Below, in pieces: positions 25,959-48,010 of a stretch of 57,393 nucleotides of DNA. The stretch comes from a virus, in the IMG/VR virus record IMGVR_UViG_3300045970_000131, positions 1 to 57,393 of that record; one strand, 5' to 3'. Below the pieces are notes generated by a model. That model was not told the origin of the DNA. It saw only the letters and a program-made list of their open reading frames with translations, and did not search any database. Numbering within the stretch: position 1 is the first letter of the stretch; every line of letters starts with the position of its first letter. A program made the position numbers and the translations under genes.

Positions 25959-28094
25959 TTACACAAGCGCATCTAGGAAGCTTAAATATCGCTCATTTGC
26001 TGGCCAGTATTGCAAATCAGGGAATAGCGTTAGAATCTGTGCATCAGACAATCCCATCCAACGTGCGAATGTCGCTCCATATTGATAAACCGATGTAGAA
26101 GGAACTAAAATATTTCCTGCCAAATCTGGCCCAGTTGCGCTATATGACGGTATATTTCCGTAAATTTTATTACCACGAACAGACTTGCCAAATACAAATT
26201 GGTGCCCACCCCATGCATGGTCAGTACCAGCATTATTTGACGTGAATGTTCGTCCAAACTCAGATATTGTAAATGTTACAACATCAGCATCTTGAATACG
26301 GCTAACGATACTATTGAAATAACTGAGTACGTCATTTAAGCATCCAAGGTTTGAATGGTTCGCAAATGTGTGTGAATCCCATGCAACATTAGGTGAGCCA
26401 GTATATAAAACCTGTCTATCAAGATTGATAAGCTTAAATTTAGTAGCGACATTGCTCAACAATGTAGTTGCAGTAGTATTGATAGTGAATGATGTAGTAT
26501 TTGGCACAGAAACTACTTGATACCCTGTAGTTGGTGATGAAGAATCTAATCCTGTCGCTGTCAAGTACACCTTGTTTAAAACTGTTAAGTTATGTTTTAA
26601 CTGAATGTTTACTGGCACGTTTACTAATGCTGTAGTGTCTGTCCCTGTCAATGTGAATGCATTATCCTCATTGCCCTCTACAAGTGTTATTTTATAGCCA
26701 TTTGCTGGTGGCGCTGCATCAATTGTTGCACCAGTAGTTGTCACCAGTACGCTATCAGATAAGTCAGATGTACTCGTACCTGAAGTAAACAAGCCATGAC
26801 CATTTGATGTGATGGTCATCACTGCTGATCCTGCTGTACGGTTTGCAACCCCTGTCGTGACCTGAGTGGTAATCGTAGCTACATTTGAGGCTGCAGCACG
26901 TGACATTGTTGCGCCGCGATTTGGGTTATTAGCCAAAATCATACGAGCCAATGTTTTCATTCCGCTTGCCCATGTTGATGCATTAAATGCCATCGATCCA
27001 ACAATGTTATATGCAATAGCAGGCGGATCAGTCAGGTTGATCACATTACCCATGATGTTTTGGAAGTCATTACCTTGTTGCGCTGTTGGTGTGAATGACT
27101 CAGTAAAATCACTTGTAAGCGGGTTTGTTGTCGTAGCTTGGATAAATAAGGCTTTTAATGCAGTTTGCACTCCGCCTGATTCAGCAGTAAAGTTTCCAGC
27201 ACCATCAGGCATCTTACGGATCAATCCTGATGATGATACATTAAATACTTTTGCTGTGCTTCCTGCTGAGAATGCAGGGCGACCTGATGCAGATACAGAA
27301 GCAATCTGTGGATTAGGGCCAGATAATCCAGCAAGTATCTGATCAGCGATTCCACCACCCCACCCTTTAGTTGCACCTTCAGGCGCATTACTATGCCAAG
27401 TTGTAGTTTGGTCATTGTGTGATGTAAGCTGTGCTGGATATTGCTGTGAGTTTGCTGCTGTAATAACACCGTTACCGATAGCATCAACATCTAGGTTAAA
27501 GATACCGCCATTTGTGCCAGATTTGTAAGTCTTACGGCGAAGTGGGCCAATATTAGAAATTACCAAGCCTTTAACCTTAGATGCATTACCTGCATTGTCT
27601 GGAACATTAATTACATCACTCAAGAATGGTAATGCAGGGTGGAATGCTGGATCACGACCAGATGCTACTGATTCGTTTATTTTAAATTGCTGCGTGTTTT
27701 TTGCATCAATTTGCAGATTGCCTAAATATGTACCTGAATAAGTAACATCACCAAAGCTTATTGTTTCAGTTGCTGTAGAAAAAGCATTTCCTGTCAGCGT
27801 AACAGTATTGGCCCCTACTGCACTAATCTTTAAGCGTCTTTGTGCAGGTAAATTAGGTGAGTACACTAATTGCCCTACAGCTAAACTGGTAACATCAGCC
27901 AATCCAGTAATTACATTTGAATCTTTGGTTAGCGTACCTGATTTAGTAACGGCATTGGTATAAGTTAATATATTTGATGCTGCTAGTGCACGTGCGGTTT
28001 GAATTTCAGAAACGCTAGCTGAATCTCGCGCAGACATAAAGTTAAATGCATCCATGCCCCCGCCTAAGTCAACACAAACTAATATTTTAGACAT
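25959..28094 (-). CDS. DUF1501 protein with inserted tail-type beta repeats
   Basis: 711 residues, SD AAGGG before ATG. DUF1501 belongs to the alkaline-phosphatase/sulfatase-like superfamily. Visible DUF1501 signatures: N-terminal strand VCVDLGGGMDAFNFM (usual form L..GG.DS.N), FHPALPFLSDVI followed by VKGLVISNIGPL, a TTWHSN segment, VTFTISEFGRTF, GTDHAWGGHQFVFG, and the end STSVYQYGATFARWMGLSD...FPDLQYW. So Asp of GGxD, and Asp-His plus His of TDHAWGGH, candidate metal ligands, are kept. Two beta-rich insertions occur at ~50-120 and ~410-550, the latter with ITSNGHGL and NGYKITLVEGNEDNAFTLTG. There is no Tat or Sec signal, unlike bacterial members, so it is expected to remain in the cytoplasm or join the virion. 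It follows the DUF1800 gene by 11 bases. Function of the family is unknown. Confidence 0.85.
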   Translation of the reverse strand: MSKILVCVDLGGGMDAFNFMSARDSASVSEIQTARALAASNILTYTNAVTKSGTLTKDSNVITGLADVTSLAVGQLVYSPNLPAQRRLKISAVGANTVTLTGNAFSTATETISFGDVTYSGTYLGNLQIDAKNTQQFKINESVASGRDPAFHPALPFLSDVINVPDNAGNASKVKGLVISNIGPLRRKTYKSGTNGGIFNLDVDAIGNGVITAANSQQYPAQLTSHNDQTTTWHSNAPEGATKGWGGGIADQILAGLSGPNPQIASVSASGRPAFSAGSTAKVFNVSSSGLIRKMPDGAGNFTAESGGVQTALKALFIQATTTNPLTSDFTESFTPTAQQGNDFQNIMGNVINLTDPPAIAYNIVGSMAFNASTWASGMKTLARMILANNPNRGATMSRAAASNVATITTQVTTGVANRTAGSAVMTITSNGHGLFTSGTSTSDLSDSVLVTTTGATIDAAPPANGYKITLVEGNEDNAFTLTGTDTTALVNVPVNIQLKHNLTVLNKVYLTATGLDSSSPTTGYQVVSVPNTTSFTINTTATTLLSNVATKFKLINLDRQVLYTGSPNVAWDSHTFANHSNLGCLNDVLSYFNSIVSRIQDADVVTFTISEFGRTFTSNNAGTDHAWGGHQFVFGKSVRGNKIYGNIPSYSATGPDLAGNILVPSTSVYQYGATFARWMGLSDAQILTLFPDLQYWPANERYLSFLDALV

Positions 28095-28105
28095 TTGTTA
28101 ATCCC

Positions 28106-30643
28106 TTATCGTTGAATGCAAAATTCCGGTGATGCAAGCAATATAGCTAACATCACACGTGCGCGTTTTTGTTGTAGCGTGCCTACCCAATTAAGATAGT
28201 GTCCAGCTACTGATGCATCGCCAGTCAATCTTGGTGATTCAGCTGCTGTTACTGTATTTGCTGCACTAATCATTAAAGCTTTAATCTCGGATGATATTGC
28301 GCTACTCATTAGCTTGTCCTGCAAGTAGTTAATGATTGCGTCATACTCTGCATCTGCTGGTGTTGCTGTTGCTGGTGCTGTGTTTGCAAGCTTGTAGAAA
28401 AGAGTAATATGCGGGAACCCACGATGTTGAACACTTCCGCCACCGTCTCTAACTTTTGAGTACGCGAGCCCTGCTGTTGGGAAAATTGCCATTGGTGCTA
28501 CGTCAAGAATATCACCTACTTGCATATCGCTTAGGCTTGCTCCATATCCAATATTGATAACCCTTGCACCAGAACCCATGCCAGCTGTAACTTCTGTAGC
28601 CCATTGGTAGTTAAAAAACTTATTATCACGTCTACGTGTAAAGACTACTCGATTGCCGCCACTCCAATAGTTGTTGTTTCCATCAAGTGAAGCAAAGTTA
28701 GATGCTCGCGTGCAACTACAGACTATTGCTACCCCAACATTAACTGCTGTAACTGTAAGGGCCATTGTAGTTAGATCAAGTCCAGGCATTTTAGACCACC
28801 CACCACGCGGATCTAATATGTCACCTATTCCTGGCAATGAGTAGTTATATTGCGCAGATGTTGTATTACATGACATACAAACAAGGTTGAACCACATGAT
28901 TTGCTGTTCTGCTGATAGCAATTGCAATTCTGGCGCAGTTAAATTCAAGTCACCAAGCTTTGTACTTGGTGGAACATAGCCAGGTCTATAGAAGTTAAAC
29001 ACTGATGATGAAGCCATCGGATATACTGGCGCATAGTGTGATGTGCAGCATGCATAGTCTAAAAGTGTGCGAGGCTTTGTAAAATACGGAAAAGTATTTG
29101 CAGTTAGCATACTTAGTTCATTGTCTGCATAGGTAGAAATAATATCATCACGAAATGCACGTATAACCCGTAATAAACGATCAGTAATAGTAGTGTAACG
29201 GCCAAAATTGTTTGGGTTCACTGCATACGGAACGATTGCTTCACGGTCTAAAAAGATTGCCTTAGCTACTGCAGATAGATCACCACGTACACCATTGCCA
29301 TTGTCTGCAAACTTTAATGCCACACGTTTAACATAATCTGGACTTGGGTTAGAAGTAACCAAAAGTTTGATTAATGCTGTTGCGATGAATGGTGGAACGT
29401 TTGGATGCGCGAACACATAGTCTAATGCAAACTCGATAGACTCTTTAACATTACCGAGTGCATAAATTCTTGTGCCAGTAGTCAGGCCATGCGCTGTCTT
29501 ATTAACAGTTACAAGGTCTGGTGTTGCTGTATTCCACAGCATATCAGCATCGTATCGAGTACCAGTAAAGTTGTTACCTAAACGATATGAGAATGGAACA
29601 TCCTTGTTAGTAAAGTTATGTCCAGAGGTAATAGCAAATGTAAAGCTATTGGCATTCACGACTGTAATGACATATCCAGCTTTGTTTGGTAGCCACTCGG
29701 GGGCACCAGCTGCTGCAAGCTGAGCAGGGAATATTACTTTGCTAGCACCAGGGTATGCAAACAAGGTTTTAGCAGCACTTTCGTGCTCAACCGCCCCTGT
29801 ATAACCGAATCGTGGGCCTGAATCTGGATAGCACCCATAGCGTTCAGATGCAGCAACACCATCATCATTTAAAACAGCCTTTTCATAGCCTGCACGCAGA
29901 CCAGTAAAGAATGGTGCAAACGCTGGAATATCCTCGGCAACATATGTGTCAACTGGTATTCCGTTACTATCAAGGACGTATGTACCGTCCATATTCATAA
30001 CTTTTAGGCCAATTGTGAACAGTTGAAGAATCTCCCTTGCGTAATTTTCATCTGGATGAGCTGATCCATAAGCCTTTGTATTGTTGTTGTACGTCAACCA
30101 TTTTGACATTGCGTGCGTATATGTCACATCAGATAGTAACTGTCTAAATGTCGATGTGTTGTTTGACTGTGTTGCAGTGACTAAGCGCTGGTAGAATCCA
30201 GTTGCTTCGCCTTGACCGACTGCTGCACCATTCATCGCAAATATTTGCGACAACGCCCATGCAAGTTTGAATCTTACCTGAGCCGTGCTGTGAACCGCAG
30301 AACCCCACCACCATGCATTTAAGTTCCCCATAAGCGGCAATGATCCAGATGTCACTTGTCCAAATGCATTAGTCTCTACGTTTACAATGCTTGTATCAGC
30401 AAACTGTGCGTCTAGCCATGCAGAGTAGGTAGATGCCATTAACTCCGTAGCCTCGTCTGTTTCACCAGCTAGCGGAACGATTGCAGTCTTAGTTGATGCA
30501 GCAATGTCAGTTCGTGGTGCACCTGCACCAAACCCAACCAATGCCAGCCAGCGGTTAGCCTGAAATCTATTTTGCGGCTTAGTGAAGGTGGCTTGGGTTA
30601 GATCAAATGTTTTATTGCGTATAAGGCTAGTTGATTTACCCAT
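28106..30643 (-). CDS. DUF1800 protein with inserted tail-type beta repeats
   Basis: 845 residues from ATG 30643, which overlaps the stop of the collagen-like gene (TAATG). Family signatures: an early helix with NRWLALVGFGAG, the DUF1800 core motif HPDENYAREILQLFTIGL (bacterial form NENYARELLELFTLG) around residue 200, FAHPNVPPFIATALIKLLV, then RVALKFADNGNGVRGDLSAV with KAIFLDREA, FNFYRPGYVPPS, and the typical end RVMLAILLASPEFCIQR. Bacterial members are about 450-600 residues; here insertions at ~310-400 (YVITVVNANSFTFAITSGHN, VNKTAHGLTTGTRIYALG) and ~635-745 add the length. DUF1800 and DUF1501 genes are neighbours in many bacteria and their role is unknown. No export signal. Transcribed in the late direction with terminase and portal. 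Confidence 0.87.
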   Translation of the reverse strand: MGKSTSLIRNKTFDLTQATFTKPQNRFQANRWLALVGFGAGAPRTDIAASTKTAIVPLAGETDEATELMASTYSAWLDAQFADTSIVNVETNAFGQVTSGSLPLMGNLNAWWWGSAVHSTAQVRFKLAWALSQIFAMNGAAVGQGEATGFYQRLVTATQSNNTSTFRQLLSDVTYTHAMSKWLTYNNNTKAYGSAHPDENYAREILQLFTIGLKVMNMDGTYVLDSNGIPVDTYVAEDIPAFAPFFTGLRAGYEKAVLNDDGVAASERYGCYPDSGPRFGYTGAVEHESAAKTLFAYPGASKVIFPAQLAAAGAPEWLPNKAGYVITVVNANSFTFAITSGHNFTNKDVPFSYRLGNNFTGTRYDADMLWNTATPDLVTVNKTAHGLTTGTRIYALGNVKESIEFALDYVFAHPNVPPFIATALIKLLVTSNPSPDYVKRVALKFADNGNGVRGDLSAVAKAIFLDREAIVPYAVNPNNFGRYTTITDRLLRVIRAFRDDIISTYADNELSMLTANTFPYFTKPRTLLDYACCTSHYAPVYPMASSSVFNFYRPGYVPPSTKLGDLNLTAPELQLLSAEQQIMWFNLVCMSCNTTSAQYNYSLPGIGDILDPRGGWSKMPGLDLTTMALTVTAVNVGVAIVCSCTRASNFASLDGNNNYWSGGNRVVFTRRRDNKFFNYQWATEVTAGMGSGARVINIGYGASLSDMQVGDILDVAPMAIFPTAGLAYSKVRDGGGSVQHRGFPHITLFYKLANTAPATATPADAEYDAIINYLQDKLMSSAISSEIKALMISAANTVTAAESPRLTGDASVAGHYLNWVGTLQQKRARVMLAILLASPEFCIQR

Positions 30644-31566
30644 TATTGCATGCTCCAAGTATTAGCGCCTACGCGGTGGAAGCGCTGTGTAACGTATTGA
30701 AGTGAAGTTGGTGCACCAGCATAGTTGTTGATCGTCACACCAGCACTTCCGGCGACATCTGCACGGCCTGCGCCTTTTTGGTAGATTGCAATTTCAACGT
30801 TGCTATTTCCAGTTAAACCTAGTATTGCATCAGTTGGGATCGTGAAGCTTCCAACACTTGCTGAGTTATAAACCAATAAGACAGGTGCAGCATTCGAGCT
30901 CAAATCAGCTGTTGCTAGTGGTCTACCTGCTATGATGTCAGCTGAGTAAGCTGGCGCTGTTACGCTTCCGCCACCGCCGCCTGCACCATTGGCACCGTTT
31001 ACTACATTAATTAATGTAGTAGTCGAATCTGTATAGGTAATTGTGTAAGTATCAGTAGTTCCAGCTGCACCAGTACCAGCTGTTCGCACAAAGCTTACGA
31101 TTCCTCGTCCAGCAGCTCCTGCCGCCCCTGCTGCGCCAGCGGCACCTGCTGCACCCGCCGTACCAGCTACACCCTGAATACCTTGTACTCCTGCTGCACC
31201 AGCGGCACCAGTTGTACCCTTGATGTTTGCTACAACACTATAAGCACCAGCAGCCTTCTGATAAACATCACCGCTTGCCGAGTTAAGTGCAAAGTCACCA
31301 TTAATACCCAAGCTTGCAGCTGGAGCTCCATTTGTCACTCGCCATACTGAACCCGCCGTACCCGCACCTACTGCATTGATCGCAGCCTGAAGGTTTGCTG
31401 TTGTAAGTTGAAGGTCTGTAATTTCAGCCTTTGCTGTAGTGATCGCCGCTTTGATTGCCGTAAAAGCTGCAATGAAAGTTGCTTTAAGCACCTTCCCCAC
31501 ATTTACGCCCGTAGCCTCAGCGGGTAGTGATGGATCGATGTTGCCGTCATTAATGTTACTTGCCAT
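30643..31566 (-). CDS. Collagen-like repeat protein, trimeric-fibre type
   Basis: 307 residues, SD AGGAGC. N-terminal ~95 residues contain a helical coiled-coil start (NVGKVLKATFIAAFTAIKAAI) then WRVTNGAPAASLGINGDFAL, a phrase found before collagen-like repeats in phage fibres. A Gly-X-Y block with mostly GAA and GVQ/GTA triplets covers about residues 115-155, followed by GRGIVSFVRT, a segment typical of phage collagen-fibre linkers, a GGGGG hinge and a small C-terminal beta domain (~205-307). It should form a trimeric rod. The stop overlaps the DUF1800 start, so expression is coupled. Likely virion appendage; whether it carries the DUF1800/DUF1501 proteins is inference. Confidence 0.82.
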   Translation of the reverse strand: MASNINDGNIDPSLPAEATGVNVGKVLKATFIAAFTAIKAAITTAKAEITDLQLTTANLQAAINAVGAGTAGSVWRVTNGAPAASLGINGDFALNSASGDVYQKAAGAYSVVANIKGTTGAAGAAGVQGIQGVAGTAGAAGAAGAAGAAGAAGRGIVSFVRTAGTGAAGTTDTYTITYTDSTTTLINVVNGANGAGGGGGSVTAPAYSADIIAGRPLATADLSSNAAPVLLVYNSASVGSFTIPTDAILGLTGNSNVEIAIYQKGAGRADVAGSAGVTINNYAGAPTSLQYVTQRFHRVGANTWSMQ

Positions 31567-40479: not shown

Positions 40480-41150
40480 GATGCACTCCCTGATAACATT
40501 GCTTTAAAATCAGCCAATCGTTGGCGATTTTTTTCCAATTGCTCAGGCGTTAATTCAGTTTTGTTTGATAGCAGTCCAACTACTTCCGTAATTGCTGGAT
40601 TTATTTTCACAGGCAAAATTGAAAGCGCATGATCTTGTGTGATACGGCCTTTTTGAACGGCAAGTTTTAAAGCCTCTTCGCGGCCTTCTTTGCTAGTTCC
40701 GAGTGATGGAAACCATTTGGGCGCGATGCCGTTGAATTTATTTGCTGATGTAATTCGGTTGTAGGCTTCTTTGAATGCCATGCGAGCGCCGATCATGTCA
40801 CCATCATTGAGCAACGGCCTTGCAGATTGCATAGCCTCTGCCATTTCGTTTGTGATAACTGCACTTGTAGCTTCATCGTGCGGGTAAATCGCCCACGCCT
40901 CTTCTGCACCAATACGCCCATCAGGATTAGCACTTTCAAGCATGGCGATAATGTCTGCTGGCCTTGGTGCGAATCTGCCATTTTTTGAATCTTGGATATG
41001 GCGGCTAAATGCCTCTTGAACTTGCTCGATTTCAAATCTAATCAATGCCGCCCACCATAAGCGCAAAACCTCTTTGGTTACTTCTTGCCCATAGATGCTC
41101 ATCGTTGCAATAAACAAATCTTTGAACTGCACTTTGTCTGAATCAATCAT
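40476..41150 (-). CDS. Putative replication protein (helicase-loader position)
   Basis: 224 residues from ATG 41150, overlapping the preceding gene by eight bases; a TTG at 41168 is less likely. N-terminal helices: FKDLFIATMSIYGQEVTKEV with LRLWWAALIRFEIEQVQEAF, then FAPRPADIIAMLES, which is a recurrent pattern in phage proteins encoded after an O-like initiator. Middle: EEAWAIYPHDEATSAVITNE, followed by MAEAMQSARPLLNDGDMIGA. No Walker motif, so not a DnaC-type ATPase; it may be a lambda P-type loader or primosome adaptor. Role inferred from neighbour and pattern. Confidence 0.68.
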   Translation of the reverse strand: MIDSDKVQFKDLFIATMSIYGQEVTKEVLRLWWAALIRFEIEQVQEAFSRHIQDSKNGRFAPRPADIIAMLESANPDGRIGAEEAWAIYPHDEATSAVITNEMAEAMQSARPLLNDGDMIGARMAFKEAYNRITSANKFNGIAPKWFPSLGTSKEGREEALKLAVQKGRITQDHALSILPVKINPAITEVVGLLSNKTELTPEQLEKNRQRLADFKAMLSGSAS

Positions 41151-42045
41151 AAACAACCTCGCCTTCAATCGTCTTTTCGTTTCCGTCGTTTAAAAACTCA
41201 TCCCCAGCTTGTTTATTTTTCTCGGTGATGATTTGTGTTTTAGTTTTAAATCCGCTTTCGCCTTTTGCTGATCTAAACCAATTGCGCCATGCAGCTTCCC
41301 AATCTGATTTTTTACCCGTTCGCTGGTTAGCATTTGCTAGCCAATGGTCTTTAAACTTATCAGCCTCTTTACGAATCATGTCGGGAGTAAATTCAGGTTT
41401 TTCAGATAAAGCCCATTCACCCCATTTTTTTGGAAGCGTCCAATCTTTGGGAAGTTGTGAGCCTTTTTTTGTGGTGGCTGCCGATTCATCGGCGGCGCTA
41501 ACTCCTGCTCCTGCTTCCTGTTCTTGTTCCTGTTCTTGTTCTTGTTCCTGTTCTTGTTCTTGTTCCTGTTCTTGTTCCTGTTCTTGTTCTTGGCTTGCAA
41601 GGGGCTTTGAAGGGGCTTTATTATTTCTAGATAATGACATTAAGAATTTTGTTTTATATTTATCAAAGAATGGCTTTAAATAAGGGCTTTCAGGCTGTGC
41701 GTTGTACTCATTTTGAACACCCTTTACCCTTAAATCTTTCTCGGTAAGTTGCTCACCTATTTGGTAGCTAGCCATTTCATATACCCATACCACCTCTGAA
41801 GCATCATCGTAGGCACAAAATCCAGCTTCAATTGCACTTTGAAGCCCCTTAGAAGCCCCTTCAACTGATAGGCCACACTCATGAGCAATATAGATTTTTG
41901 GTAAGTAATACATGCCAAGCATGTTGGCGTGTGAGCATGTCATCAGGTACAAAGAAACTAACTGGCACTCAATCCCTTTAGCGCGCAGTTTTTTACCTGT
42001 TGCACCTATCCAAAATTGCGGACTAACTTTTGAATAGTCGCGCAT
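41143..42045 (-). CDS. Putative replication initiator (O-like) with Glu-Gln repeat linker
   Basis: 300 residues. N-terminal ~110 residues resemble a phage winged-helix replication domain: SPQFWIGATGKKLRAKGIEC, then LVSLYLMTCSHANMLGMYYL and LSVEGASKGLQSAIEAGFCA with VVWVYEMASYQIGEQL. The centre (~150-178) is an alternating Glu-Gln tract encoded by a hexanucleotide repeat. The C-terminal ~90 residues carry DKFKDHWLANANQRTGKKSD and WEAAWRNWFRSAKG, the W-rich end shared by O-like/DnaT-like proteins. It should bind the origin and recruit the next gene's product. Origin iterons were not recognised inside the gene. Confidence 0.75.
   Translation of the reverse strand: MRDYSKVSPQFWIGATGKKLRAKGIECQLVSLYLMTCSHANMLGMYYLPKIYIAHECGLSVEGASKGLQSAIEAGFCAYDDASEVVWVYEMASYQIGEQLTEKDLRVKGVQNEYNAQPESPYLKPFFDKYKTKFLMSLSRNNKAPSKPLASQEQEQEQEQEQEQEQEQEQEQEQEQEAGAGVSAADESAATTKKGSQLPKDWTLPKKWGEWALSEKPEFTPDMIRKEADKFKDHWLANANQRTGKKSDWEAAWRNWFRSAKGESGFKTKTQIITEKNKQAGDEFLNDGNEKTIEGEVVYD
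41515..41592. repeat. Hexanucleotide microsatellite in the initiator gene
   Basis: About thirteen tandem TTGTTC/CTGTTC-type hexamers (plus-strand sense), read on the minus strand as alternating Glu and Gln codons. Copy changes stay in frame because the unit is six bases. Confidence 0.9.
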
Positions 42046-42732: not shown

Positions 42733-42927
42733 TTAGGCGGCTTTTGAACAGTGAAGCGCATGTAGAGCATCAATCTTCCTGCCACCCTTTTCTATTCCAA
42801 TGTCTTTTTGCACGCCATTAGCTAAATCTGAAATTGTTGGCTGCGATACTCCAATAGCCTCAGATAAAGCCTTTTGGGTAAATCCTTGCTCAATTAAGTC
42901 GCGTATTTTTTCGTTTACGTTTTTCAT
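42733..42927 (-). CDS. Cro-like helix-turn-helix repressor
   Basis: 64 residues from ATG 42927; in-frame ATGs at 42936 and 42933 overlap the promoter -10 region, so 42927 is preferred. A clear HTH is present: RDLIEQGFTQKALSEAIGVS followed by QPTISDLANGVQ, the XRE/Cro recognition arrangement. The promoter's expected start point lies within a few bases of this ATG, so the mRNA may be leaderless. It is the first gene of the leftward early operon and divergent from the CI-like repressor, with the shared operators between them; it should favour the lytic course. Confidence 0.85.
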   Translation of the reverse strand: MKNVNEKIRDLIEQGFTQKALSEAIGVSQPTISDLANGVQKDIGIEKGGRKIDALHALHCSKAA

Positions 42928-42934
42928 AGTCATC

Positions 42935-42978
42935 ATTATATAGGAGTTCCTATGTCACTTGTCAATAGGCAATCCTAT
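42935..42978 (-). promoter_or_regulatory. Leftward early promoter with two repressor operators
   Basis: On the minus strand, TTGACA at 42965-42960, and TATATA at 42942-42937 with a 17-base spacer (TATAAT two bases further). Two 14-base palindromes ATAGG-N4-CCTAT lie at 42940-42953 and 42965-42978, starts 25 bp apart, covering the -10 and the -35. The plus-strand repressor promoter (GATAAT -10 at 42991-42996, no clear -35) abuts the second operator, as in an activated pRM. Confidence 0.9.
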
Positions 42979-43002
42979 TCGTTAAAAATAGATAATCCGA
43001 TA

Positions 43003-43665
43003 ATGAGCACATTTGGTGAACGATTAAGAGAGGCGAGAAAAGATAAGAAGCTGTCACAAACGGCTTTGGCTAAACTCGTAGGTTTGAAGCAACCAACAAT
43101 TGCAGAGGCTGAAACAGAGGGTAAAGGAAGTAGTAGGGCTGCTCTTTTAGCAAAGGTATTAGGTGTTAATGCACTATGGTTATCTGAGGGAAAGGGTGAT
43201 AAAGGGACAGTAGCGAGCCCTGAGATAGATTTAAGTGATAATGAGGATTACCCACCAGTGCGAAGAGTGACACTTACATTATCAGCTGGCCATACTGGCT
43301 ATGCAATTGAACATGATATTCAAGATAAAACACCAATTGTGTTTGCAAAAGAATGGTTTATAAGTAATGGCTATAAACCAGAAAATTTACTTGCCGTTAA
43401 GGTCAAGGGTGAAAGCATGCAGCCAAGCTTACATGATGGTGATACTGTAACCTTGAATATAGCAGATACAAAGCCTATGGATGGGTTCGTATTTGCTATA
43501 AACTATGAAGGTGAACTGCTCATTAAAAGGCTTATTCGTGATGCAGGTACATGGTGGATTAGTAGCGATAATCCAGATCAAAGAAAATACCCACGTAAAG
43601 AATGTATCAATGAGGGGTGCTTGATACTTGGTCGTATAGTTCATAAGCAAAGTGAATTTATATAG
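43003..43665 (+). CDS. CI/LexA-type prophage repressor (S24 family)
   Basis: 220 residues from ATG 43003. An in-frame ATG at 42952 sits inside the first operator and is unlikely. N-terminal HTH: FGERLREARKDKKLSQTALA then LVGLKQPTIAEAE. Linker ~65-90. C-terminal S24 peptidase fold: candidate Ala-Gly cleavage at LSAGHTG (95-96), catalytic Ser138 in VKGESMQPSLHDGD, and Lys175 in ELLIKRLI, so RecA-stimulated self-cleavage and SOS induction are likely. The absence of a Shine-Dalgarno and a GATAAT -10 seven bases upstream suggest a leaderless message, as for lambda cI. It should bind the four ATAGG-N4-CCTAT sites. Confidence 0.93.
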   Translation: MSTFGERLREARKDKKLSQTALAKLVGLKQPTIAEAETEGKGSSRAALLAKVLGVNALWLSEGKGDKGTVASPEIDLSDNEDYPPVRRVTLTLSAGHTGYAIEHDIQDKTPIVFAKEWFISNGYKPENLLAVKVKGESMQPSLHDGDTVTLNIADTKPMDGFVFAINYEGELLIKRLIRDAGTWWISSDNPDQRKYPRKECINEGCLILGRIVHKQSEFI

Positions 43666-43667
43666 AT

Positions 43668-43943
43668 ATGACAAGAATTTTTATCTTAGCTGTCAGCTGC
43701 TTATTCATTTTTGGGTGTTGCAAAAAAACACCAGAAGATTGTATTTTAGAAAACATTGAAAAAGCACATAGCAATGCATCAGCAAATATGATTAGTCATA
43801 TTTGTACTGAAAAATATGGTGCAAAAACATCCACAAAGATTATAGAGGATTTTGGGCCAGCAGCACCAGCACCGAATACAGAGGATTCAGATAAATCAAA
43901 TTTAGATAAAAATGGATATATACATGACCCATATAGTAAATAG
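43668..43943 (+). CDS. Small lipoprotein co-transcribed with the repressor
   Basis: 91 residues. Lipoprotein signal: MTRIFILAVSCLFIFGC with lipobox FIFGC, then CKKTPEDCILENIEKAHSN. The mature part keeps two further Cys (DCILEN, HICTEKYG) and a Pro-rich acidic tail (PAAPAPNTEDSDKSNLDKN). The motif ENIEKAHSNASANMISHICT resembles a phage lipoprotein family with unknown function. It starts three bases after the repressor stop, so it is expressed in the lysogen: a lysogenic-conversion or superinfection-exclusion candidate. Confidence 0.75.
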   Translation: MTRIFILAVSCLFIFGCCKKTPEDCILENIEKAHSNASANMISHICTEKYGAKTSTKIIEDFGPAAPAPNTEDSDKSNLDKNGYIHDPYSK

Positions 43944-44202
43944 ACCAATATTTTTTATATTGTTAATTATGTCAGCGCATTGCTACGCAGCTACCGACTA
44001 TCAATGTGTTAATAATTGCACAAACAATGGCCATCAATACAACTATTGTACTGATCGATGCAGCTATGACGATCCAAGCCAAACACTGCCAACCCTGCCA
44101 ACTCTAACCGATCCAGTTAAACAAACAGACTATCAATGCATGAATACCTGCACCAGTAAAGGCTATCAGTACAATTACTGCCAGCAAGCATGTTCGTTTT
44201 AA
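43924..44202 (+). CDS. Cys-rich secreted protein with two tandem repeats
   Basis: 92 residues from ATG 43924; an in-frame ATG at 43912 is possible. Signal peptide with IFFILLIMSAHCYA cleavage after CYA. The mature protein has two copies of a ~25-residue unit, TDYQCVNNCTNNGHQYNYCT and TDYQCMNTCTSKGYQYNYCQ, each with four Cys, joined by a Pro/Thr linker (LPTLPTLTDP). The unit probably folds around two disulfides. Overlaps the end of the lipoprotein gene by 20 bases. Last gene of the repressor transcript, followed by a terminator. Likely lysogenic-conversion protein in the periplasm or outside. Confidence 0.78.
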   Translation: MTHIVNRPIFFILLIMSAHCYAATDYQCVNNCTNNGHQYNYCTDRCSYDDPSQTLPTLPTLTDPVKQTDYQCMNTCTSKGYQYNYCQQACSF

Positions 44203-44257
44203 ATAACCTACCTACCCGTTACAAATAACCTACCCACCCCTTATCGCAAATTAAATT

Positions 44258-44280
44258 ACTCGCCTAATGCGGGTTTTTTT
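44258..44280 (+). terminator. Terminator of the repressor operon
   Basis: Stem ACTCGC/GCGGGT with one T-G pair and a CTAAT loop, followed by seven T. It ends the lysogenic transcript immediately before the rightward early promoter. Confidence 0.85.
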
Positions 44281-44298
44281 ATGTTCTTGTAAATAAAT

Positions 44299-44340
44299 AT
44301 AGGTACTCCTATTGACACATATTATAGGATAACCTATTAT
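44299..44340 (+). promoter_or_regulatory. Rightward early promoter with two repressor operators
   Basis: TTGACA at 44312-44317 and TATTAT at 44335-44340 with a 17-base spacer, a strong sigma-70 promoter. Palindromes ATAGG-TACT-CCTAT (44299-44312) and ATAGG-ATAA-CCTAT (44324-44337) overlap the -35 and the spacer/-10; starts are 25 bp apart, the same layout as at the leftward promoter. It drives the recombination-integration operon. Confidence 0.92.
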
Positions 44341-44347
44341 TCTATCC

Positions 44348-44545
44348 ATCGCATCAAACAAAGCGCCGAGTGCGTGAGTTAAGAAAATTCGCTATAGCGG
44401 GTAACCATCAAGTCACAGATGGCCAGAAGCTAAGCCTAGATTCAAAGTTAAACGAGTTTGTGTGCAAAGGTTCACGGCTTGCACCCGAAAGTGCTCATTT
44501 CCTCAACTCGCTAGGTGGCGATTGCATCAAAGCCTAGCAATTTTT
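44348..44545 (+). ncRNA. Structured leader RNA of the rightward early operon
   Basis: About 200 bases between the predicted start (~44347) and the first gene. Pairings seen: an outer stem joining CGCC near 44373 with GGCG near 44517 and GAGTT near 44385 with AACTC near 44503; an inner hairpin CATC/GATG (~44408-44425); and GTGCAA/TTGCAC (~44462-44484). GCATCAAA occurs at both ends. No ORF fits. Could be an antitermination element (put/nut-like), an attenuator or a separate small RNA. No family is recognised. Confidence 0.5.
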
Positions 44546-44559
44546 AAGGTAGTTGCGAT

Positions 44560-44943
44560 ATGAGATTTTCTACTGATATTGGTTGTTTTGAAATAGATAG
44601 TATGCCGAGTCAATGCCAGGTAGCAATTGCTCACGGATTCTTTATACATGAGCATAAACGCGGTCAAGGATTAGCTAGTGTATTGCACGCAAGGCAAATA
44701 AAAGAGCTTCGTAACCTTGGATATGACTATGCAATTTGCACGGTAAGTGGTGACAACCCAGCACAGTCAAAGGCAATTAAAAATGCTGGATGGACGCTAA
44801 CTAACACTTTTTACAATCGCAGAATAAGCAAGCAGACAGAAGTTTGGGAGCTGAATATTGTCGCTCTAAACAGAAGAGAGTCAGACAGTACATTATTTGG
44901 TGTATTCCCATCACCGCTTACTGAATATCTGGAAACAGCGTAA
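44560..44943 (+). CDS. GNAT-like N-acetyltransferase
   Basis: 127 residues. Acetyl-CoA site visible: FFIHEHKRGQGLASVLHARQ, with the RxxGxG/A-type pyrophosphate loop KRGQGLA, then IKELRNLGYDYAICTVSGDN, followed by PAQSKAIKNAGWTLTNTFYN, the terminal GNAT strand-helix pattern. Substrate unknown; phage GNATs of this kind may modify host proteins or toxins. First gene of the rightward early operon, behind the structured leader; TAATG overlap with the next gene. Confidence 0.8.
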   Translation: MRFSTDIGCFEIDSMPSQCQVAIAHGFFIHEHKRGQGLASVLHARQIKELRNLGYDYAICTVSGDNPAQSKAIKNAGWTLTNTFYNRRISKQTEVWELNIVALNRRESDSTLFGVFPSPLTEYLETA

Positions 44944-45377: not shown

Positions 45378-46418
45378 ATGAATACAGCATTACAGACATC
45401 ACAGGACTTTAGCGGTAGTAGTCAGACAAATGCGGTCACTGAAACTGCATCAACGGCAATAGCTGCGCAATCAAAAGCAATGGTTGAAAGTCGTTACATC
45501 ATGGCGATGCGCAATCCGCGCAATTGGGATGGTGTGCGTCAAGAGCTATTAAAAGAGTGCCGCCGCCCTACTTTTGCCAACAATCAATCTGCTTACTATG
45601 TTAAGCCAATTGGTAAAGGCGTTGAAGGCTTGGGCATTCGCTTTGTAGAGGTTGCTTTACGTTGCATGAAAAACGTATTAGTTGAAACAACCATGATTTT
45701 TGAAGATACCGAAAAAGAAGTTCACCGCGTATCGGTCACTGATCTTGAAGCCAATATTACTTATCCACTTGATGTACGTGTATCTAAAACAGTAGAGCGC
45801 AGCAAGCCAAATAGTGATGGCTCTTACATAAGCGTGCGTAAAAACAGCTACGGTAAAGAAACATTCACCGTGCTAGGCACAGATGACGATCTACTTAATA
45901 AGCGTGGCGCTCTTATTTCTAAAGCTATTCGTACTATTGGGCTACGAATCATACCAGGTGACTTGTGTGATGAAGCCGAAGAAATCATTAAGCGCATTCG
46001 CTTAGACGATGCAGCAAAAGACCCTGATGCAGAGCGCCGCAAGATTGTTGATGCTTTTTCAGCTATTGGCGTTTCAGCAACAGACTTGGTTTCATATTTA
46101 GGTCATGACCTAGCCAAATGTTCACCAGCACAGATTGTTGAGCTACGTGGAATATATGGCGCTGTTAAAGATGGCGAAGCAACTTGGCAATCTGTAATGG
46201 ATAACAAAGCTGAGCAAGGTTCGTCCACCATAGGAAAGAAAAAAGCTGAACTTCCAAACTGCACCGCAGAGAGCTTCGACAAGCAAAAAGTCGGCTGGAT
46301 GAAGGTGATCGAGTCGAAGAAAAAAACTCCAAATGAGTTAATTGCAACAATCGAAACCATAGAAATTTTATCAACTGAACAGAAGCTTGAAATTGCTTCT
46401 TGGCTACCACAGGAATAA
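45378..46418 (+). CDS. Putative single-strand annealing recombinase
   Basis: 346 residues. Starts with a Ser/Thr/Ala-rich tail, then a conserved-looking core: AAQSKAMVESRYIMAMRNPR with NWDGVRQELLKECRRPTFAN, SAYYVKPIGKGVEGLGIRFV with EVALRCMKNVLVETTMIFED, SYGKETFTVLGTDDDLLNKR and GALISKAIRTIGLRIIPGDL. The basic, mixed alpha-beta core followed by a helical C-terminus (ELIATIETIEILSTEQ) recalls RecT/Sak-type annealing proteins, and it is paired with a YqaJ exonuclease, the standard Red-like arrangement. Family identity not proven without a profile search. Confidence 0.72.
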   Translation: MNTALQTSQDFSGSSQTNAVTETASTAIAAQSKAMVESRYIMAMRNPRNWDGVRQELLKECRRPTFANNQSAYYVKPIGKGVEGLGIRFVEVALRCMKNVLVETTMIFEDTEKEVHRVSVTDLEANITYPLDVRVSKTVERSKPNSDGSYISVRKNSYGKETFTVLGTDDDLLNKRGALISKAIRTIGLRIIPGDLCDEAEEIIKRIRLDDAAKDPDAERRKIVDAFSAIGVSATDLVSYLGHDLAKCSPAQIVELRGIYGAVKDGEATWQSVMDNKAEQGSSTIGKKKAELPNCTAESFDKQKVGWMKVIESKKKTPNELIATIETIEILSTEQKLEIASWLPQE

Positions 46419-46420
46419 TC

Positions 46421-48010
46421 ATGCAAACCTTACACTTGGTTCAAGGAAGTCAGGATTGGTTGGCTCACAGAAGCCAAACCCACATTAAAAATGCATCTGA
46501 TGCGCCTTCTATGATGGGGGTATCACCTTACGAAACACGCGATGAATTGCTTTATCGTAAAGCAACTGGCATCACTAAAACGGTTAGCCCGTCCGTACAA
46601 AAGCGATTTGATGATGGTCATCGTTATGAAGACTTGGCAAGGCCGATTGCTGCCGAAATAGTCGGTTTAGCGCTCTACCCTGTCACTGGTGTGTCTGGCG
46701 ATTATTCTGCCAGTTTTGACGGCCTAACCATGATGGAAGATGAAGGGTTTGAGCATAAAAGCTTAAATGATGAACTTCGATCAATCATGGTTGGCGATTT
46801 CACTGGTGCCGATTTGCCTATCTACCATCGCATTCAAATGGAACAGCAGTTAATGGTTTCAGAAGGCACAAGAATATTATTCATGGCCTCAAAGTGGGAT
46901 GAGAAAGACGAATTGTTAGAAGAGCGTCATTGCTGGTACTACCCTGACTCAAACCTACGCCAAGACATCGTTAACGGCTGGGTGCAGCTTGATTTTGAAC
47001 TTGCCAACTATACGCCACCAGAAGTTAAAGAAATGCCAAAGGCTGAGGTATCAATTGATTTGCCTGCCCTTTTCATTCACGCCCACGGTGAAATCACTAA
47101 TAGCAACATGGAAGCCTACGGCATAGCGCTGGCAAAGCGCCTTGAAGAAGTCCGTGCAATTGTCCTGCAGGATGATCAAGACTTTGTAAATGCAAAAGAA
47201 GCCGCAAAGAAATTACGTGATGGTATCAAATCAGCCCAGCTAGCCAAAGAAGCCATGCTTGCGCAAACCGTGACTGTCGGTGAAGCCTCTCTATTAATTG
47301 ATGCTTGGTGTGAAGATATGCGCTTGACTGCGCTTCAGCTTGAAAAAGACGTTGAGCGCGAAGATGCCAAGAAGAAACAAACCATGATTCTTGCTGGTAA
47401 ATCAAAAATTACTGAGCTTTTAGCTGAGTTAAAAGCAGTCATCGCACCAATTAACCTAATCTATAAAGAACCCAATTTTTCATTAGCAATTAAAAACAAA
47501 CGTAACTATCCAAGCATGGAAAGTGCTGTTAATGACATGGTTGCTGCAACATCAGTAGAGATAAGAAGCATTACCAATGATGTAAAAGGCAAAATGAATT
47601 GGTTTGAGTCTACGATAGGCGATATTAAGCATCCCCTATTCCCTGATTTGCAATCTGTGATTTATAAGCCTACTGATGATTTCCAATTGCTTGTAAATGC
47701 TCGCATAGAAGAGCAGAAAAAGCGCGATGCAGACATTGCATCAGAAGCAGCGAAAAAGGCAATTTCAGCAGCGCAGGAAGTAGCAGCACAAGAGTCGGTT
47801 AAAGAAGTTATACAGGAGCCAGCAGCTGCAAGCGTTACAGAGGTTAAGCCTGTTTCAACTTATATAAAACAAGCAGCCGTTATCGATAACCAAGATGACA
47901 TTGCACGATTCTTAAAGTCACGCGGATTAAGCGATTCAAAATATAACGAGTACCGCGCAGTTTTAGTTGAGTTTGTGAAGTTTACAGCTAAAGAAGAAAT
48001 GGCAGCCTGA
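46421..48010 (+). CDS. YqaJ/lambda-type exonuclease fused to a C-terminal helical domain
   Basis: 529 residues from ATG 46421 with AGGA upstream (a TTG at 46400 would overlap the previous gene). N-terminal ~190 residues show the YqaJ recombinase site: GSQDWLAHRSQTHIKNASDA, GHRYEDLARP with Glu70, SASFDGL with Asp100, FEHKSL with Glu111 and Lys113, and IYHRIQMEQQLMVSEG. It would digest DNA 5' to 3' and load the annealing protein. The remaining ~330 residues are mostly helical, with a DUF1351-like look (AVIAPINLIYKEPNFSLAIK) and a tail AVIDNQDDIARFLKSRGL. Longer than lambda Exo (226 residues). Confidence 0.88.
   Translation: MQTLHLVQGSQDWLAHRSQTHIKNASDAPSMMGVSPYETRDELLYRKATGITKTVSPSVQKRFDDGHRYEDLARPIAAEIVGLALYPVTGVSGDYSASFDGLTMMEDEGFEHKSLNDELRSIMVGDFTGADLPIYHRIQMEQQLMVSEGTRILFMASKWDEKDELLEERHCWYYPDSNLRQDIVNGWVQLDFELANYTPPEVKEMPKAEVSIDLPALFIHAHGEITNSNMEAYGIALAKRLEEVRAIVLQDDQDFVNAKEAAKKLRDGIKSAQLAKEAMLAQTVTVGEASLLIDAWCEDMRLTALQLEKDVEREDAKKKQTMILAGKSKITELLAELKAVIAPINLIYKEPNFSLAIKNKRNYPSMESAVNDMVAATSVEIRSITNDVKGKMNWFESTIGDIKHPLFPDLQSVIYKPTDDFQLLVNARIEEQKKRDADIASEAAKKAISAAQEVAAQESVKEVIQEPAAASVTEVKPVSTYIKQAAVIDNQDDIARFLKSRGLSDSKYNEYRAVLVEFVKFTAKEEMAA

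Follow-up and report, generated by a model that had tools for sequence, protein, structure and literature searches.

A predicted lambda-like immunity region with paired 14-bp operators nested in divergent promoters of a temperate phage

The window analysed here, which is the whole 57,393-bp virus record, features a cI-like repressor gene and a divergently oriented cro-like gene with palindromic operators between them (Table 1). The cI-like gene itself lies between this operator pair and a second, similar pair. Its product displays residues of the self-cleavage type, as read from the sequence (A-G at 95/96, Ser138 and Lys175); its start codon was chosen by N-terminal homology to the CI of a related IMG/VR contig, L006, and a search of solved structures by sequence gave no match to it. 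The first two ATG codons of the cro-like gene fall in or against the -10 hexamer of promoter pR, and translation therefore probably starts at 42927, with a leader of 0–3 nt. The cro mRNA is thus predicted to be nearly leaderless. The start of cro is comparably placed in the IMG/VR relatives L018, L020, L027, L035 and L011, and PY54 is a known case of a phage whose cro and cI transcripts lack a leader (PMC4488713).

Judging by gene order, pR drives cro and replication genes, and the opposite promoter pL drives an operon with the GNAT-like and RecE-like genes and a phrog_3657 protein; an integrase gene lies further on. A similar GNAT-like protein is encoded downstream of a matching pL in L007. 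The two small ORFs that follow cI are possible lysogenic conversion genes; the lipoprotein-like one is probably lysogenic cargo, and a phage search with it gave no match. The terminator-like hairpin between the cI operon and pL is weak evidence alone, with one such hairpin found and 1.4 expected in shuffled sequence. Two features of the surrounding genome were noted in passing. A hexamer repeat (41503-41592) encodes a Glu-Gln tract within the DnaD-like helicase loader, and large DUF1501 and DUF1800 genes (25959-30658), which look like unusual phage cargo, separate the terminase genes from a P22-like portal gene.

Table 1. Features of the putative immunity region and of the operons that flank it.
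Feature	Coordinates	Strand	Remarks
DnaD-like helicase loader, pR operon	41143..42045	-	phrog search
cro-like HTH gene, 64 aa from third ATG	42733..42927	-	HTH_3 2.6e-08, phrog_6831 1.7e-16
pR	42935..42965	-	-35 TTGACA 42965-42960
OR1-like operator ATAGGAGTTCCTAT	42940..42953	.	overlaps pR -10
OR2-like operator ATAGGCAATCCTAT	42965..42978	.	cro-side end is first T of pR -35
Candidate degenerate OR3-like operator ATAGATAATCCGAT	42988..43001	.	2/10 mismatches
cI-like repressor, 220 aa, HTH and Peptidase_S24	43003..43665	+	domain and phrog searches
Small ORF for a predicted lipoprotein, immediately downstream of cI	43668..43943	+	no family match
Small Cys-rich secreted-like ORF, after cI	43912..44202	+	without clear family
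Terminator-like hairpin with T run, between cI operon and pL	44258..44281	+	hairpin scan
OL operator ATAGGTACTCCTAT	44299..44312	.	last T is first T of pL -35
pL, TTGACA-17-TATTAT	44312..44340	+	-35 44312-44317, -10 44335-44340; promoter scan
OL operator ATAGGATAACCTAT	44324..44337	.	final TAT begins pL -10
GNAT-like gene, pL operon	44560..44943	+	domain and phrog searches
RecE/YqaJ-like recombination exonuclease, pL operon	46400..48010	+	domain and phrog searches

An earlier note on this DNA had described four ATAGG-N4-CCTAT palindromes arranged as two pairs, each with a start-to-start distance of 25 bp. All four starts (42940, 42965, 44299 and 44324) proved exact, and 25 bp was measured in the OR pair and in the OL pair alike. 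An exact pattern search of the 57,393-bp record returned these four sites and none beyond them, against a mean of 0.08 and a maximum of one per shuffle in shuffled sequence, so that the palindrome is not frequent elsewhere in the genome. The outward-pointing TTGACA/TATAxx promoters with 17-base spacers that the same note had drawn over these sites were also recovered, in opposite directions. The pL promoter matches consensus at 11 of 12 positions in a promoter scan. For pR the -10 hexamer may be TATATA at 17 bp (42942-42937) or TATAAT, which is the better hexamer, at 19 bp (42940-42935); the simple promoter scan did not list this promoter, since TATATA does not end in T. The same nesting is evident at both promoters: the terminal T of the first palindrome doubles as the opening T of the -35 hexamer, and the -10 hexamer begins with the TAT that closes the second palindrome. 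The equal spacing of the two pairs follows from operators being built into promoters with a 17-bp spacer.

Further motifs were observed near the predicted start of pL. A TCCATCG/TCCAACG-like element is present at 44341-44350, and also in L007, L008, L021, L025, L026, L035, L058 and HK639; a boxA-like sequence, CGCTCTTTAACAA, lies downstream of this element in L006, L015, L023 and L026. The idea of a put-like antiterminator RNA downstream of pL was rejected (folding z-score of -1.18, with no relevant Rfam match).

The arrangement recurs in other viral genomes. A scan with the exact promoter pattern gave 6 IMG/VR contigs, and a looser operator-pair pattern gave 31 IMG/VR stretches, a count that overstates their independence because some contigs are near-duplicates. 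In many of the 31 the pair overlaps TTGAC with 25-bp spacing, and in several a second cluster lies roughly 1–2.5 kb away. The operator-pair scan placed the same OL geometry, with 25-bp spacing and -35/-10 nesting, in at least 12 distinct phages, and CI proteins related in their HTH part adjoin the sites in about ten groups of loci. A reverse scan of IMG/VR with Cro gave 9 matches, of which 4 are convincing homologues and 5 are not; the 4 all lie at loci with these sites and belong to the same phages that the operator scan had yielded. Cro found no match among annotated phages, and a DNA search with the 101-bp OR region gave chance matches only. The possibility that the palindromes bind another regulator, for example a host-encoded one, or are chance or repeat structures, may draw on the 19 pattern matches in bacterial genome contigs, most of which are tandem arrays of similar palindromes in 21-22-bp units. 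These arrays lack promoter nesting and were judged unrelated. With only four sites in the window, both pairs at lytic promoters and an arrangement conserved across phages, we regard such an origin as highly improbable.

The closest relatives of the window by Cro, L006, L009, L011, L036 and L018, share its ATAGG-N4-CCTAT sites and a degenerate third site, and differ from it in an OR1-OR2 spacing of 23 bp. L006 also shares the 24-bp gap between OR2 and cI. Its CI, unlike the 220-aa protein of the window, has only 144 aa and no apparent S24 part. Such 144-aa CI proteins are encoded next to the same operators in L006 (4231-4665), L011 (10556-10990) and L036 (1379-1813). The C-terminal halves of CI therefore seem exchangeable, and induction in these phages must work otherwise.

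The layout is also apparent among phages chosen with no reference to operators. Fifteen CI relatives were picked from annotated phages by protein similarity, without operator information, and searched automatically for clustered 14-bp palindromes with no half-site given and with shuffles for comparison. OR triples together with OL pairs, well above shuffles, were found in HK639 (half-site ATAAC), phi297 (ATAAG), phiAH14a (AAAGG) and CBW1004C-Prop1 (ATGGG). D3 features three annotated OR sites and an OL pair, and sites of the ATAGG type occur in Acinetobacter phage A785.1, likewise retrieved through its CI alone. The 25-bp OL pair with the same nesting is present in 7 CI relatives, namely these six and VarioGold, whose pair was missed by the automatic search and read by eye; their half-sites are mostly other than ATAGG. 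No clustered sites were found by the automatic search in 5 of the 15, and phiEt88 showed a simple repeat only, so the layout is common and not universal. A point against the model is that the recognition-helix code is loose: KQP, TQT and NQV helices all occur with ATAGG sites, and TQTS occurs also in a phage with ATGGG sites.

The number of operators at OR requires a closer look. A candidate degenerate site, at 23 bp from OR2, stands a single base ahead of the cI ATG and overlaps a possible pRM -10. A matrix trained on other phages ranks it 9th among 57,376 window positions, with a score of 7.4 bits compared to 18–22 for the four strong sites. In L006 a degenerate site, ATCAGAATACCTAT, occupies the same place, at a distance of 24 bp from OR2 and immediately ahead of the cI ATG, and in L018 a one-mismatch site near the cI start is better than either. 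Local shuffles gave P values of 0.0016 for the window site and about 0.002 for the L006 site, which are a guide only, since the sites had already been seen when this test was designed. The earlier note had proposed two sites per promoter rather than the three of lambda. This stands for OL and for the strong sites of OR; at OR as a whole a degenerate third site is probably present, and the likely operator set comprises two OL sites, two strong OR sites and one weak one on the cI side.

It is conceivable, but rather unlikely, that OR truly has two sites, that CI represses its own promoter instead of activating it, and that the match at 42988 is only the AT-rich -10 region of pRM. The centre of OR2 is 31.5 bp from the cI ATG in the window and in L006, compared to 43.5 bp in D3, so that CI on OR2 would cover the -35 region of pRM. 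In the main reading, too, this distance makes lambda-type activation of cI by CI bound at OR2 doubtful if the cI mRNA starts at the ATG. The occurrence of degenerate sites at the same place in the window and L006, the better one in L018, and shuffle P values of about 0.002 for each of the former two speak against a site count of two. A shortened switch may tentatively be envisaged, with two strong OR sites, CI covering its own promoter and so regulating cI negatively, the vestige of a third site at the cI start codon, and a nearly leaderless cro mRNA.

In the immunity region of lambda, pR and cI diverge, further operators stand at pL on the far side of cI and its cargo genes, and CI is of the S24 type. 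The window resembles it in gene order, in divergent pR and cI, in operators repeated at pL past cI and cargo, and in its S24-type CI. It differs from lambda in its 14-bp sites, in having two strong sites per promoter at 25-bp spacing, in an OR2 nearer to the cI start, and in a nearly leaderless cro.

Other phages are closer in operator number. N15 and phiKO2 have three OR and two OL operators, described with binding data (PMC4997575), and their five-operator immB layout matches that of the window if the weak site is counted. They differ in their 16-bp T-A-(N)10-T-A operators, in an OL located upstream of repA, and in a CB repressor without self-cleavage residues (PMC4997575). Three operators per promoter are not required of all lambdoid phages, since 933W lacks OL3 (PMC3317979). 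D3, HK639, phi297, phiAH14a and CBW1004C-Prop1 share with the window the 25-bp OL pair, identical -35/-10 nesting and a related CI, and differ in their half-sites and in three OR sites at 23-25 bp; the OR-to-cI distance, where measured (D3), is larger as well. An OL of two sites is not unusual, being found by sequence in these five phages as well as in N15/phiKO2 and 933W, and the window is likely close to the five-operator class (3 OR and 2 OL) of N15/phiKO2 and, by sequence, of D3 and HK639. Literature searches on the operator sequence itself found nothing relevant, and those on the HK639 and D3 operators nothing useful.

Very probably we are dealing with the immunity region of a temperate, lambda-like phage, with predicted control by CI and Cro at the pR and pL operators. 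The pL/pR-like control that had been suggested from the DNA is well supported by gene order, by the placement of operators within promoters, by the rarity of the sites, and by their conservation in many phages whose CI proteins are HTH-related. In a lysogen, CI dimers bound to the 14-bp palindromes of OR and OL would silence pR (cro and replication) and pL (recombination), and both promoters would be freed once damage causes the S24-type CI to cleave itself. During lytic growth Cro, with a recognition helix similar to that of CI, would act on the same sites, and through the weak third site next to the cI start Cro or a surplus of CI would probably hold cI expression down. Alternatively, CI would repress at all sites, and the action of Cro would be confined, wholly or for the most part, to the weak site nearest cI, without repression of pL or pR. 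Indeed, phiKO2 CB binds five operators and phiKO2 Cro only OR3 (PMC4997575); PY54 Cro likewise binds only OR3, in a phage whose cro and cI mRNAs are leaderless (PMC4488713), and a near-leaderless arrangement is predicted here too. Nevertheless, the resemblance of the Cro helix SQPTIS to the CI helix KQPTIA favours shared sites, and the third site is the weakest of the set, not the best, so that we consider such a division of labour unlikely.

As a circuit of CI and Cro sharing operators, the region appears to be a classic lambda-type lysis/lysogeny switch, well conserved, and not a new kind of circuit. What seems mildly new is the predicted near-leaderless cro and a distance from OR2 to cI that is unfit for lambda-type activation. 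The layout also provides a signature by which immunity regions may be found and compared, namely an OL in which a 14-bp palindrome is followed by TGAC and, at a spacing of 25 bp, by a second palindrome. This signature persists through changes of half-site between phages, and immunity groups thereby become testable from DNA. Phages with a common ATAGG-N4-CCTAT may be cross-immune even where the C-terminal halves of their CI proteins differ.
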